NCBI GenBank assembly: GCA_913048545.1 | Contig: CAJWWH010000010.1 | Coordinates: 1 to 27,731, forward strand | Reading direction: 5' to 3' | Length of the DNA stretch: 27,731 nt | Origin: an uncultured Opitutia bacterium | GTDB lineage: Bacteria; Verrucomicrobiota; Verrucomicrobiae; Opitutales; MB11C04 | Shown: in pieces, positions 4,119 through 8,637 of the stretch | Position numbering within the stretch: position 1 is the first letter of the stretch | Layout: each line of letters opens with the position of its first letter | The notes under the pieces: model-generated | Database searches by the model: none | What the model was told of the DNA's origin: nothing | What the model saw: the letters and a program-made list of their open reading frames with translations, nothing else | Translations under genes and position numbers: made by a program

Positions 4119-5219
4119 TCAAAGCGGTCCAACCGTGTCTTGTCCGTCAATTGATACATTGATCGTCAATCCATCCGCGTAATGACCGCCTTCGCTAGGC
4201 AAAAGGACATGAGAACCATCCATGCGGGCAGTCATTGAAACGATTACAAATTCCGTACCGTTGGGTAATTTAAAGTCCTGTTTTAATTCCTCCCAAGTGG
4301 ATGGATTCAAGTCACTTTCGAGGTAAAATTCCTCATGAGCAATGGAAGCATTCTCATTATTTTCATCGCTGGCAATCGCATGGAAAGAAAGGGAAAATTC
4401 TGTAGGATCCCCGGTTATATCCATGCTCTTGTTAAAAAATACACTGGTTTGGATCTGTGCCGTTCCCCGTTCCATTTCAGAGTTGATATTCCTGACATCA
4501 ACCACTTGAAGAGTTTCCGTAGATTCCGAGTTTTGAGCATGCACATCCACATCCATGGGAGAAAACTTTAACATACCCTCTCCGGTCATGGGTAAAATAC
4601 CATTCTCAGCCGGGACAGACAGGAATTCACTTCTTTTCCAGCTAGCGAAAGCATCTCTATATTCCACCACTCCCCCTTCACCAAAATTCCTTTTTTCCTT
4701 CAATACTTCGATTCCGTAGAGCGCGTGATTTAACGCAGTCTGTTCGGTTGACATAAACGGGGAAGGCAGAGGAAAATCTGCTGCATTCACCGCGACTGTA
4801 CCAACGGAGTTAAAATTGTTCAGTTCGGAAGAAGCAGAAGAGGGTAAAATACCGAGCGTTCCGGGCTCAGACTTCGCAATTTCAGCATTTTCTTTCGATG
4901 GACTAATAATTTGATTCGCAGATGAGTGAAACCACCAGACACCGAAAAGAGCAACCACTGCCGCGGCCATAGACGAAAATACAGGCCAACTGAACACAGG
5001 AAACTGAATGATTTTAGCATTCGAAGTTTCCACAAATTCCACTGATTCCCAATGCAACATGGAATCTTGGATGGTCAGTTCCCTGTACCGGGATCGAGCA
5101 TCTTTATTCTCTTTAAGCAGCACGGATAATCGATCGAGATCTTCTTCCGTGTGCAAATCATCCAAAACTTTGGATGTCAGTTGATCAACTTCTTTAAAAT
5201 TGTGCGTTTCTGTTTTCAT
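4119..5219 (-). CDS. Membrane-anchored anti-sigma / FecR-like protein
   Basis: A 366-residue one-pass membrane protein. The cytoplasmic N-terminus (about 1-72) is helical, with an anti-sigma-like pattern (LTSKVLDDLHTEEDLDRL, then RYRELTIQDSMLHWE) typical of planctomycete and verrucomicrobial anti-sigma proteins. No HxxxCxxC zinc motif is seen. One transmembrane helix covers about residues 76-97 (VFSWPVFSSMAAAVVALFGVW). The periplasmic part is low-complexity at first, then beta-rich to the C-terminus. It lies 61 bp downstream of the ECF sigma gene on the same strand, the classic arrangement for a sigma/anti-sigma pair. Its role, holding the sigma factor at the membrane until an envelope signal, is inferred from context. 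The periplasmic domain was not recognised. Confidence 0.7.
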   Translation of the reverse strand: MKTETHNFKEVDQLTSKVLDDLHTEEDLDRLSVLLKENKDARSRYRELTIQDSMLHWESVEFVETSNAKIIQFPVFSWPVFSSMAAAVVALFGVWWFHSSANQIISPSKENAEIAKSEPGTLGILPSSASSELNNFNSVGTVAVNAADFPLPSPFMSTEQTALNHALYGIEVLKEKRNFGEGGVVEYRDAFASWKRSEFLSVPAENGILPMTGEGMLKFSPMDVDVHAQNSESTETLQVVDVRNINSEMERGTAQIQTSVFFNKSMDITGDPTEFSLSFHAIASDENNENASIAHEEFYLESDLNPSTWEELKQDFKLPNGTEFVIVSMTARMDGSHVLLPSEGGHYADGLTINVSIDGQDTVGPL

Positions 5220-5280: not shown

Positions 5281-5814
5281 TTAAGAATCAAGCTCAGCCT
5301 CAACCGCGGGGATTTTATCCTTCACACAGGTTATTAAATTTATTCGAATTCTATGGAGTGTGGCCGACACCGAACCCATCGGTCTTTTTAAAGCTTTTGA
5401 TATTTCGAGCAGACTTTTGTCCTCGCGAAATCTTAACCGAGCCATCGCTTTCATGTGCTTGGGTAATAATTCATAACAAATTTGAAGTGCCTTACGGGAG
5501 AGGTCCATCTCCTTTAAATCAACGGACTCTTCGGCAAGATTATCAATCAAATCGGGACTAAAATACAGTCTACTTCTTTTGAACTTTGAAATGTGGCCCA
5601 TCACTTGGTAGCGGGCAATATTAAAAGCCCATGCCTGAAAGTGACCTTGCGGGTCATATTCATTTGCTTTCCGGCAGAGAATAAGATTGGTCTCCTGTAA
5701 AATATCCTCCGCTTCGGTTCTGTTTGGAAGAAGAGTTAGAATGTAAGCATAGAGAGGTCTTTGCAAAGCTGTGAGCTTTGTCGAAAAATCAAAAGGGATT
5801 GGTTCTTCACTCAA
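5281..5814 (-). CDS. ECF RNA polymerase sigma factor (Rhodopirellula/Verrucomicrobium type)
   Basis: A 177-residue sigma-70-family protein with only regions 2 and 4. Region 2 is visible as EAEDILQETNLILCRK followed by HFQAWAFNIARYQVMGH (residues about 35-75). Region 4 is the helix-turn-helix in LLEISKALKRPMGSVSATLHRIRINL near the C-terminus. This fits the ECF group common in Planctomycetes and Verrucomicrobia (TIGR02989-like). The start is a TTG at 5814; an in-frame stop lies a short way upstream and no ATG or GTG intervenes. Only 17 bp separate it from the ATG of the divergent coiled-coil membrane protein, so the two promoters must overlap or sit inside the opposite gene. It heads the sigma, anti-sigma, PQQ-propeller operon. 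An A10 run follows the stop at 5269-5278. Confidence 0.85.
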   Translation of the reverse strand: MSEEPIPFDFSTKLTALQRPLYAYILTLLPNRTEAEDILQETNLILCRKANEYDPQGHFQAWAFNIARYQVMGHISKFKRSRLYFSPDLIDNLAEESVDLKEMDLSRKALQICYELLPKHMKAMARLRFREDKSLLEISKALKRPMGSVSATLHRIRINLITCVKDKIPAVEAELDS

Positions 5815-5831
5815 AACAAATACAGGGAAAA

Positions 5832-7142
5832 ATGAATAAATTCGTTTGTCAACCTAATGACAAAATCGTTAACGGGTTTCCCACCATTTTAAATGGTAGA
5901 TTTTACTCTTGGATAAAACATGTTGCATTACAGGATAAAAAAAAATTTATTGTTTTTATGCAACCGTGGCAAAGCGTATTGCTCATTTTCATTACCTTAA
6001 TTATTTTTGGCGCGGGGTTATATTATGATCAAATTAAAAAAAATACCGCGATTGCATATGAAGATTCTTTAATTACCACTCCGTCAGAACTTGCAGAGGA
6101 CATGGAGCTTAACGACTCCCTTGAAATAAACACAAGTGCAATTCTTGAAAATTCCTCTGCATGGGCAGAAAAAAAAGTCCACCTTGAGGTTCCGAAGTCA
6201 AATTCTCACTTTTCTCATCTCCATAAAGAGGCAATCAAAGGGGATCAATTTTTGGTGGCAATCATTAAGTCTCTCCAAAATAATCCGAACGCAAAAAAAT
6301 TAATATTCAGTCCGTTTTTAAACGATGTATTCATCGAGTCGGAAACCACTATCCTACGGTCGCTTTTTTCTATTGCTCAGGATGTTGAATCACCCAATAG
6401 ATTGGTATTAACCGTACGCGGGCATTCCGTTAAAGCTTCTTCATTACTGACCAGGGTAATCACTGAGTCCTATGCAAAGGAACTCAATGAAGAGTCCCCG
6501 GGGAATCCCCTGCTTCCAAAACTCGCAAAGCAAAGAAAGGAAATCAGCATGCTTGAGCAGAGCCAACTCCAATTAGCCAAGCAAATACAGGAGGAAAATG
6601 AAAATAGCCCCGGTCAGTCGATTGAGGAAATTGCTCTTTTGGCGGAGCTTTCCCAAGTGAAGAATGACATTCAATCGGGAGTAAAGGCACTGAAAGAAAT
6701 CGAGAATATCCACTTGGCTCAAAAAGACTCTTCTGAATATCTTACAATCAAAATGTTGGCTGATTTTGGAAATGTACAGGATTTTTTCTCTAATATTGTG
6801 GAACTCAAAAAATTGCTCGCGAAACAAGAGTTAGAGCCCATCCTAAAAAAAGAGGTTAATAAAAATTTGTATAAACTGGAATCTTCCCTCGCACAGGAAA
6901 TTGCCAGGGGTATTGACCATATTAAGAGAACATCAAGAGTTTCTTTGGACCGAAAAATTGAACTACAAAAAATACTGGTGGATCTCGAAATGAAAAAAAA
7001 TGATATTCATTCCCTTCACCCACGATTTAGGGTGTTAAAATCAGTCAAAAAACAACTAGATGAAAAAAACGCCCTTTTCTCCTCAGAATTCAAAAAGTGG
7101 CAAATAGCAAAACAAAATCTTGTCATTAGTAAATCCACTTAG
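5832..7142 (+). CDS. Wzz/GumC-like one-pass membrane protein with long coiled coil
   Basis: A 436-residue protein. ATG 5832 is preferred over an upstream in-frame TTG because an AGGG lies six bases before it. After a basic cytoplasmic tail there is a single transmembrane helix (about 46-64, QSVLLIFITLIIFGAG). The periplasmic part begins with an alpha/beta segment (FLVAIIKSLQNN... to RLVLTVRGHSVKASSLLTRV, about 140-215). That order resembles the base of polysaccharide co-polymerases: an xVxxxxxDPxxA-like strand, then a helix with Y. Coiled coil fills about 225-436, including SLHPRFRVLKSVKKQL, which resembles the HPxVxxL segment of GumC proteins. The second transmembrane helix and tyrosine-kinase domain of that family are absent. 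An A9 run encodes K36-K38. The stop interlocks with the flagellin stop. Function is inferred: chain-length or envelope scaffold. Confidence 0.5.
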   Translation: MNKFVCQPNDKIVNGFPTILNGRFYSWIKHVALQDKKKFIVFMQPWQSVLLIFITLIIFGAGLYYDQIKKNTAIAYEDSLITTPSELAEDMELNDSLEINTSAILENSSAWAEKKVHLEVPKSNSHFSHLHKEAIKGDQFLVAIIKSLQNNPNAKKLIFSPFLNDVFIESETTILRSLFSIAQDVESPNRLVLTVRGHSVKASSLLTRVITESYAKELNEESPGNPLLPKLAKQRKEISMLEQSQLQLAKQIQEENENSPGQSIEEIALLAELSQVKNDIQSGVKALKEIENIHLAQKDSSEYLTIKMLADFGNVQDFFSNIVELKKLLAKQELEPILKKEVNKNLYKLESSLAQEIARGIDHIKRTSRVSLDRKIELQKILVDLEMKKNDIHSLHPRFRVLKSVKKQLDEKNALFSSEFKKWQIAKQNLVISKST

Positions 7143-8449
7143 GATAAAAGATCCTCCACATAATTTCTTTGATTAAACAGTTTATTTGCCTGGGCAAATA
7201 TTGCCGTGGTGGATTGCATTTTTATTTCCGCCCGGGCAAGCCTGCTTGCAGTGATTGCCATATCCACATCCTCAATGCGTGAAAGGGATTTCTCATGATT
7301 AATTATGTCGTTCGCGAGTCCACTAATTTCAGAATTCAAACGAGATTCGTTGGATCCAGTCAATGCAATCTTATCGATCACATCCTCCTGAGCATCCATT
7401 ATTCTAGACATAGCATCCTTAGCATTCGCCATAGAGGTTAAATCGATTGTAGTGCTTGGTAAAAAACGCTTAAAACTAATCTTAGCCAATTCAAAAAACC
7501 CTCCAAATGCATCATCATGTGCCCGCAAGTTATTGGGGTCACTTTCTCGTAAATATGCCGTTGGACCACGGGCAGTTAATCTAAGGTCATTCCATGTCTC
7601 ACGTGTTGTAATTTGTAATGCATCCTCATTGTTACCACCACTTTGATTTGGCTCATCATTATTTATACCGATTCGCCTCTCCCAATTCTCATACATTCCA
7701 GCTACCAAAGTACCTCCACTATCCCCTCCCTTTCCTTGCCAAAAAAGCCGGCCTCTCCCTCCATTTTCAAGACCCTCTGGACCTTCAACCCATCTCCAGT
7801 CTCCTTCATTAGATCCAGGTGCCTCCCCATTAAATTCTGAGTCACTTCCACCAAGCCACATTTGAGTGCCCGCAACAGAACCCCTTAACTGCCTGTTAAT
7901 CTCATCTTGTTCTTCGGATGAAGTGATGGTTGCCAAATAATGATCATATTCCGGGTCAGAAGCATTTGCTGCCGCTACGTGAGCACGTGCTTCAGTCCAA
8001 TTATATGGTCCGGTATTTATAACTGCATACTTTGTATTACGGAACAAATCCTGTCCGTTAAATTGTTCATTATCGATTTGTAAAATATGTTCACGAAGTT
8101 CTTGAAATTCTTTGTTATAGTTCTCTCGATCCAAATCTGACTTGGTTATATCCATCGCCATTGCGGCCAATTGCGACATACGACCATAAATTCGATTTAC
8201 ATTGTTCAGGGCACCCGTCTGAACTTGAGTGTAAGATAAGGCATTTTGAAGACCTTGCGTAACCCCCCTAAGTCTTTTTAATTCACTTGCCTGCTTTATT
8301 TTGTTGGACAGTGCCCCCACATCGTCAGGTGATTGGTTGACTTTCAATCCAGTGGATAGTTTTTCGATGTGAGCCCGTCTTTCCTGATGGATTTTGTCCA
8401 TGTCACGGGACAGTTTCGAAGCAAAGTTATGTGCATCTGAAATGATCAT
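7139..8449 (-). CDS. Flagellin with central C-type lectin-like domain
   Basis: A 436-residue filament subunit. Residues 1-139 are flagellin D0/D1: IEKLSTGLKVNQSPDDVGALS, then a helix with YGRMSQLAAMAMD and an end EQFNGQDLF. Residues about 335-436 are the C-terminal D1/D0 helices (SRIEDVDMAITASRLARAEI, ending AIFAQANKLF). Between them, where D2/D3 would be, residues about 140-302 form a C-type lectin-like fold: WTEARAHV, LATITSSEEQDEI, WLGGSD, GDWRW, then EPN (266-268), ED (275-276) and WND (286-288). These are the Ca2+/sugar-site residues of mannose-binding lectins in the right order and nearly the right spacing. The protein has no cysteine, so the usual lectin disulfides are absent. No other flagellar gene is in the window. 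An adhesive filament or surface lectin is inferred. Confidence 0.9.
   Translation of the reverse strand: MIISDAHNFASKLSRDMDKIHQERRAHIEKLSTGLKVNQSPDDVGALSNKIKQASELKRLRGVTQGLQNALSYTQVQTGALNNVNRIYGRMSQLAAMAMDITKSDLDRENYNKEFQELREHILQIDNEQFNGQDLFRNTKYAVINTGPYNWTEARAHVAAANASDPEYDHYLATITSSEEQDEINRQLRGSVAGTQMWLGGSDSEFNGEAPGSNEGDWRWVEGPEGLENGGRGRLFWQGKGGDSGGTLVAGMYENWERRIGINNDEPNQSGGNNEDALQITTRETWNDLRLTARGPTAYLRESDPNNLRAHDDAFGGFFELAKISFKRFLPSTTIDLTSMANAKDAMSRIMDAQEDVIDKIALTGSNESRLNSEISGLANDIINHEKSLSRIEDVDMAITASRLARAEIKMQSTTAIFAQANKLFNQRNYVEDLLS
7544..8032 (-). other. C-type lectin-like insert within the flagellin gene
   Basis: This segment encodes about residues 140-302 of the flagellin. The ED-to-WND spacing (nine residues) equals that which I recall for rat mannose-binding protein A, and EPN-to-ED is six residues against five. 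The boundaries are judged by where flagellin-like helices stop and resume and are good to perhaps ten residues. Confidence 0.75.
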
Positions 8450-8637
8450 AATGGTTATATTGTAATATAGTTAACAACGGGCATAACTACATTGTTTTTT
8501 GCAAAAGAGTGCAAAAATACAAAATAATTATGCAATTATATATGCTACTATAAAGACATCCTTGTCGTTATAATTTGATATAAATCAATTTTGGACATGA
8601 TCTTCCTGACCATGTGCCTGAAAATTTATGTTATTTC

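Follow-up and report, generated by a model that had tools for sequence, protein, structure and literature searches.

Flagellins can carry a functional domain in their hypervariable centre and display it on the filament, as described for flagellinolysin (PMC5595980). Here we report a gene of comparable layout in a 27,731-nucleotide (nt) stretch of DNA from an uncultured Opitutia bacterium of the MB11C04 lineage; this whole stretch is called the window, and genome-level statements are drawn from the genomes of relatives. The gene encodes a flagellin with a lectin-like insert, and we put at roughly 0.7 the probability that its product is a filament subunit in which a D0/D1 core bears a cysteine-free C-type lectin outer domain that binds sugar via Ca2+. 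Relatives of the window also carry collagenase-type (Peptidase_M9) flagellins like flagellinolysin, but the window insert is of lectin type rather than a metallopeptidase, and Pfam gave no Peptidase_M9 match in the window protein at E <= 1.

Three further groups of proteins offer comparisons. The animal C-type lectins (MBP-A 1msb, CEL-I 1wmy/4wqq, and the asialoglycoprotein receptor) share a profile match with the insert and have EPN/QPD, ED and WND in register, whereas the window domain is bacterial, lacks disulfide cysteines, lies inside a filament protein and has longer loops. The flagellin core is matched by cell-surface flagellins (PDB 2zbi, 3k8v, 3k8w), which we take to be those of Sphingomonas sp. 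A1 and to be associated with alginate/polysaccharide contact; we know of no C-type lectin insert in them. Finally, two large Verrucomicrobiota proteins (L118 and L091) and a PEP-CTERM protein (P0162) combine EPN and WND in a cysteine-free lectin part, but show FG-GAP/cadherin-like, fn3/NHL-like or PEP-CTERM matches and are not filament subunits. A protein like L118 or L091 was probably the donor of the insert.

The original prediction had called such a fusion undescribed. None was found in the literature searched, and the survey of flagellin outer domains by Fields et al. 2024 could mention one; the sequences themselves, however, are already in databases, as 'flagellin' or 'FlgL' where they are named. 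Nor did the literature searched yield multi-flagellin Opitutales. What stands, from sequence comparison, is a predicted family of lectin-displaying flagellins with two specificity classes and a probable independent second origin, within the known domain-bearing flagellins represented by flagellinolysin.

The flagellin and its insert

The open reading frame (ORF) occupies 7139-8449 on the minus strand and encodes 436 amino acids (aa), with a TAA stop codon at 7139-7141. Pfam recognizes flagellin at both ends: Flagellin_N at residues 10-139 (E 6.6e-16, 59.1 bits; cut-off 26.6) and Flagellin_C at residues 350-424 (E 2e-10, 41.3 bits; cut-off 23). The full-length model aligns with solved flagellar filaments, the matched structures being filament flagellins. 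The parts of the gene are as follows.

8033-8449, minus strand: flagellin D0/D1 N-terminal part, residues 1-139 (Flagellin_N; model helices 2-33, 41-98 and 105-126)
7535-8029, minus strand: C-type-lectin-like insert, residues 141-305, about 165 residues (insert-only profile against PDB; Lectin_C; order of model elements)
7646-7654, minus strand: EPN triplet, residues 266-268, predicted mannose-type specificity motif (150 EPN and 7 QPD; aligned with MBP-A and 4wqq)
7622-7627, minus strand: ED, residues 275-276, with E275 the predicted Ca2+/sugar ligand (E275 in 157/157; aligned with ED of MBP-A)
7586-7594, minus strand: WND, residues 286-288, with N287 and D288 the predicted Ca2+ ligands (157/157; aligned with MBP-A and CEL-I)
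7142-7447, minus strand: flagellin D1/D0 C-terminal part, residues 335-436 (Flagellin_C; long model helix 340-427)

The motifs cited for the insert lie where they had been placed, namely WTEARAHV at 151-158, LATITSSEEQDEI at 172-184, WLGGSD at 198-203 and GDWRW at 216-220, as do those of the site (EPN 266-268, ED 275-276, WND 286-288).

A profile built from 16 inserts and searched against all PDB sequences gave 141 matches at E <= 1. The best are CEL-I (9.1e-9), mosGCTL-1 (6.6e-8) and MBP-A (3.8e-7), with DC-SIGN and langerin also present, and the best 60 of the 141 are C-type lectins or proteins that we take to share their fold (among them aggrecan, the IgE receptor and type II antifreeze protein). 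In these alignments the three motifs of the insert (EPN, ED and WND) fall onto their counterparts in MBP-A and in CEL-I entry 4wqq. All but one of 16 representative inserts match Pfam Lectin_C at E <= 0.1, the best at 1.5e-7, and flagellins with Lectin_C inserts, for which the original prediction had proposed a search, are on record: PF00059 stands in the precomputed annotation of 39 of 120 homologues (the best 120 of 182; a second listing comprised the best 120 of 269). Together, the Pfam evidence and the PDB profile matches and alignments settle the homology of the insert to C-type lectins, confirming at the level of sequence a C-type lectin homologue with an EPN/ED/WND site. The claim of an outer domain homologous to C-type lectins, with this site intact, is supported by profile, alignment and conservation.

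The structural model places in the insert a helix (151-164), a strand (168-172), a helix (178-188), a strand (197-202), a long loop with EPN, and then strands 275-280, 286-290 and 298-305; this order of elements is that of the C-type lectin fold. When the full-length model was compared with the 'pdb_via' structures, flagellins alone were listed, and the missing lectins are uninformative because flagellins fill the whole list. Against BFVD, a viral library, the full-length model gave no usable match. A phmmer search of PDB with the single window insert returned one meaningless match (E 0.93); the lectins appeared with the profile alone.

The window flagellin contains no cysteine, as claimed, and lacks the disulfide cysteines conserved in animal C-type lectins. 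The same is true of 154 of 157 lectin flagellins, and also of 17 of 20 non-flagellin stretches that match the insert profile (many of them partial); the other three (L095, L097 and L099) have one or two cysteines each. The sequences of three outlying proteins agree with this pattern, the lectin parts of P0159 and P0162 being without cysteine and that of P0161 having one. Bacterial C-type lectin domains of this branch have thus commonly lost their cysteines, and an export explanation is unneeded. The proposal that this loss is an adaptation to export through the flagellar channel is not supported, since most non-flagellin relatives are equally cysteine-free. The earlier interpretation accordingly survives as to a lectin-homologue flagellin with an intact site, and loses its export argument. 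Separate small C-type lectin ORFs (L026-L029; about 170-200 aa), with cysteines and a possible signal peptide, are present in G001-G004.

The EPN/QPD site across the family

From 162 retrieved proteins we aligned 157 flagellins with the insert, leaving out P0155, P0158, P0159, P0161 and P0162 (fragment, disturbed frame or non-flagellin) and retaining partial flagellins such as P0145, P0154 and P0156. Residues P267, E275, W286, N287 and D288 are identical in all 157. The triplet at 266-268 is EPN in 150 and QPD in 7; neither QPN, EPD nor any other state occurs among the 157 aligned members. The ligand set predicted by sequence (EPN or QPD, E, and ND) is thus complete in 157/157, and these are residues that serve as ligands in animal lectins. 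Animal C-type lectins with EPN are associated with mannose, and those with QPD are associated with galactose (PMC5379193).

Six of the QPD members form one clade (FastTree support 0.976), nested in a 22-member clade (0.996) that is otherwise EPN in the rows listed. The seventh, P0128, sits in a different EPN clade, with weak to moderate local supports (0.355 and 0.934). We also built an IQ-TREE tree from 71 of the 157 rows, with the motif columns removed, identity below 93% and all seven QPD members included (P0160 and others shorter than 380 aa were excluded). The EPN/QPD label needs two changes on this tree, and a constraint uniting all QPD rows is rejected (p-AU 2.2e-114). On these phylogenies, EPN/QPD has switched at least twice.

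In the six-member clade QPD is followed by a Trp and a Gly-rich loop, for example QPDNATWSGVGGED and QPDNALWAGAGGED; the Trp is also found in an EPN sister, P0070. The insert of the QPD member P0105 matches aggrecan best in PDB (8.6e-6), followed by the asialoglycoprotein receptor (9e-4), and matches weakly (0.27-0.39) the MBP-A entries 1bch, 1bcj and 1afa, presumably galactose-binding mutants. Both forms can occur in tandem, with one QPD and one EPN lectin flagellin on contig C47 of G405; the tandem pair of a near relative of the window (L001) has EPN in both.

Conservation was measured on 54 members, selected from the 151 rows with a length of 400 aa or more. Mean pairwise identity is 0.572 for the insert, 0.577 for D1 and 0.600 for D0. 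Conservation of the insert at the level of D1 argues against both a decoy and an unconstrained spacer. The first of these, a hypervariable outer domain under phage or grazer pressure in which the lectin motif is incidental, would suit the many paralogues and the loops around residues 204-212 and 257-274, which vary in length; given an insert conserved like D1, and no reverse transcriptase of the kind found in diversity-generating retroelements among 10 neighbouring ORFs scanned, we consider it highly improbable.

The second possibility is that the insert binds no sugar and that its lectin fold serves mechanically, as a rigid outer domain that acts as spacer, adds drag or makes contacts between subunits. 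Flagellin outer domains have mechanical roles elsewhere (PMC8931119), and the many invariant columns, the poorly modelled EPN loop and L120, a relative without the motif, would all fit such a role. A spacer, however, would not need to retain E, N, E, N and D, nor does it explain a joint change of E to Q and N to D that occurred at least twice with no intermediate among 157 members; we judge it decidedly unlikely. Two triplet states and repeated switching favour real sugar recognition over an inert spacer. The sequence record supports the view that evolution treats the EPN/QPD site as functional, and sugar binding by the insert is likely.

Several observations pull the other way. Taken singly, the window insert scores 19.2 bits (E 0.0021) and 19.4 bits in two scans against Lectin_C (PF00059), under the gathering cut-off of 22.6; Lectin_C is not matched at E <= 1 by the window protein as a whole, nor at E <= 0.01 by the full-length QPD members P0105 and P0128. 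The model has low confidence in the EPN loop, with a mean predicted local distance difference test (pLDDT) score of 53 over residues 261-270. Residue 276 varies (D in 147 of 157, H in 6, N in 4), and the singleton P0128 has neither the Trp nor the Gly-rich loop of the other QPD members. Invariant columns make up 30 of the 165 in the insert, many of them probably structural, so that conservation alone is no proof of sugar binding. Divergent members are missing from the 157, because these were found by similarity among the best 120 of each listing. L120, a long protein with a flagellin N end and the insert, has no recognisable EPN...WND motif. As to lifestyle, PMC8857213 describes North Sea Verrucomicrobiota, by fluorescence in situ hybridization, as mostly single cells, neither aggregated nor particle-attached.

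Distribution, origins and flagellin repertoires

In a sample of 141 genomes of the class, G001 alone has a full-length match, among the matches listed; the strong insert matches (E <1e-20) in 288 genomes from the phylum are those of G001 and of one 3170-aa open frame in G086. Within the G001 family, a single ORF carries both flagellin ends and the insert in 18 of 42 genomes. Such ORFs number 20, of which some are truncated where a contig or locus ends; 19 have EPN and 1 has QPD. In three further genomes of the family the gene is long, split or shortened: besides L120, these are L121, divided across two frames, and L122, shortened and carrying a TGA. The three states may reflect either assembly error or decay.

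A flagellin from a different lineage, P0160, has a lectin domain at about residues 129-273 with EPN...EN...WND, and its residues 282-449 align with residues 102-272 of Caulobacter FljK. The lectin thus lies inside the N-terminal D1 region in P0160 and after residue 139 in the window family. It is the FljK alignment that places the insertion; pairwise alignments between parts of P0160 and P0001 were too weak for this. The different insertion site suggests that the flagellin-lectin fusion probably arose at least twice.

At least one Flagellin_N match is present in 41 of 42 genomes of the G001 family, and five genomes have 27, 33, 7, 23 and 7 (hook-protein-like and cut-off ORFs included). FlhA, the export gate, is found in all five and FliD in four. 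One 44.7-kb contig holds 17 Flagellin_N matches, 16 of them above the cut-off, and clustered flagellin ORFs range from about 300 to more than 1200 aa. The clusters of many flagellin genes are those of L083/L084 (contig C35 of G004), L061, L062 and L069-L075.

The outer domains in these repertoires differ. In a set of 71 flagellins (from 82 ORFs with a flagellin or insert match in three genomes; set A2), CBM_5_12 is matched in 5, Peptidase_M9 in 4 and Lectin_C in 1. Three CBM matches scored singly gave one above the cut-off (43.1 vs 26.2) and two below, and the M9 match of L062:7409-9100 reaches 40.9 bits (cut-off 26). Among flagellin-family proteins, CBM5/12-like stretches were noted in L078:3527-7225, L072:2283-5183 and L084:15449-18487. 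HExxH occurs in the insert of L062:7409-9100, L077:54-1766, L083:11826-13532 and L087:2262-4034, which resemble flagellinolysin; the neighbouring flagellin L087:4097-5869 has neither an M9 match nor HExxH.

With 23-33 Flagellin_N matches in three relatives, the window lectin flagellin may be a minor or local filament component. An alternative is that it is not a main filament subunit; it would instead be an FlgL-like hook-filament junction protein, a subunit present rarely and locally, or a lectin secreted as a monomer. Several homologues are named 'flagellin-like hook-associated protein FlgL' by JGI, the window protein scores 73.5 bits with TIGR02550 (FlgL, hook-associated protein 3), and a minor role would fit the many paralogues. 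The TIGR02550 score is, however, well short of its cut-off of 127.2, the solved structures matched by the model are filament flagellins, and in G001 and G002 the contig with flhA also encodes another, long Flagellin_N protein (open frames of 1396 and 1380 aa). We therefore regard a role outside the main filament as quite unlikely.

The leader, the neighbouring genes and a proposed role for the filament

Two putative hairpins precede the gene.

8595-8615, minus strand: leader hairpin 1, AGGA in the loop, tentative CsrA-like site (leader scan; alignment of 8 leaders)
8555-8566, minus strand: leader hairpin 2, GACA-AGGA-TGTC, contains ACAAGGATGT, tentative CsrA-like site (8-leader alignment; predicted fold)

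The element ACAAGGATGT, whose sole copy within the window lies about 115 nt upstream of the start codon, is the core of the CsrA consensus RUACARGGAUGU (PMC6692469). A second AGGA, about 158 nt upstream of the lectin-flagellin start, can occupy a hairpin loop. ACAAGGATGT is invariant, about 100-135 nt upstream, in all 8 aligned lectin leaders (7 relatives and the window), which were chosen because they contain it; several other lectin flagellins are without it. In predicted folds, hairpin 2 forms in 7 of 8 leaders (not in L106), and hairpin 1, with GGA in its loop and stem sequences that differ, in 6 of 8, the folded stretches of the window and L001 having cut the hairpin 1 stem (on its 5' side in the window). 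Shuffle z-scores of the leader folds range from -0.37 (the window, not significant) to -3.27.

A scan with stricter criteria, requiring two AGGA hairpins, flagged 2 of 7 leaders of lectin flagellins and, in three relatives, 10 of 78 leaders of other flagellins, against a background of 101 in 8500 mononucleotide shuffles, or about 1%; in 9 of the 10 flagged non-lectin leaders the AGGA hairpins are close to the start codon. A csrA gene was found in 4 of 5 genomes and was not found in G002. This pattern suggests CsrA control of flagellins in this family. Searches upstream of lectin flagellins for sigma-28 and sigma-54 consensus sequences were uninformative (best 5-7 and 3-5 mismatches, respectively), and Rfam gave no match within the window. 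By eye, some leaders contain a short upstream ORF that starts in AGGATGT, with lengths differing.

Around the flagellin, the window and L001 have the same gene order, again judged by eye. In the window the neighbours are a sigma-70-like factor (5281-5814, minus strand), a 366-aa protein (4119-5219) and a 454-aa protein (5778-7142), the latter two without a Pfam match; all three also adjoin the flagellin in L001. They are possibly a linked regulatory and envelope module. The G+C content is 42.9% in the window, which is compatible with the 43% given for MB11C04 in PMC8857213, and 36.8% in L001.

If the gene encodes the sugar-binding filament subunit proposed above, D0/D1 would build the filament core and the lectin would occupy the usual place of D2/D3, with the protein exported and assembled as filament or part of it. 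One Ca2+ would be held by E266, N268, E275, N287 and D288 and would coordinate paired vicinal hydroxyls of a sugar. EPN sites accept mannose, fucose and N-acetylglucosamine (GlcNAc)-like sugars; the window form would accordingly prefer a mannose-, fucose- or GlcNAc-like residue, and its QPD paralogues a galactose-like one. PMC8857213 gives fucose and rhamnose genes as less prevalent in MB11C04. Many copies along the filament would make weak binding multivalent and allow reversible adhesion to, or recognition by touch of, surfaces coated with glycans, for which polysaccharides of algae or particles are the most plausible candidates.

The site could instead read the glycans of the cell itself or its kin (surface polysaccharide or glycosylated flagellins), leading to filament bundling, envelope tethering or cell linking. 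Conservation of EPN/QPD fits any glycan target, and the 23-33 Flagellin_N matches in each of three genomes could include glycosylated partners; two specificity classes side by side, however, fit a varied external target more simply, and we hold the reading of own glycans to be unlikely.

Relatives have many flagellins with differing outer domains, of which the lectin flagellin is one; the filament may therefore be a mixed surface for glycan contact, with interchangeable parts. A broader and tentative proposal, to which we give rather less than an even chance, is that in this Opitutales family the filament would be a modular surface for reading and handling glycans: dozens of paralogues would carry exchangeable modules (EPN lectin, QPD lectin, a CBM5/12-type binder of chitin or cellulose, a collagenase-type protease), with sugar preference evolving through the EPN/QPD switch known from animal lectins and some subunits under CsrA-like leader control, and the cells would thereby choose which glycans to grip.

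Should the insert bind sugar, these flagellins would join the proteolytic ones as a second functionalised class, and the family would be a natural experiment in which the EPN to QPD switch of animal lectins was made at least twice on bacterial flagellins, with both forms on one contig. The lectin domain, small and cysteine-free, should be easily testable. The motility organelle would then double as a multivalent lectin and link swimming directly, at the molecular level, to glycan-selective attachment in marine bacteria that may feed on algal polysaccharides.

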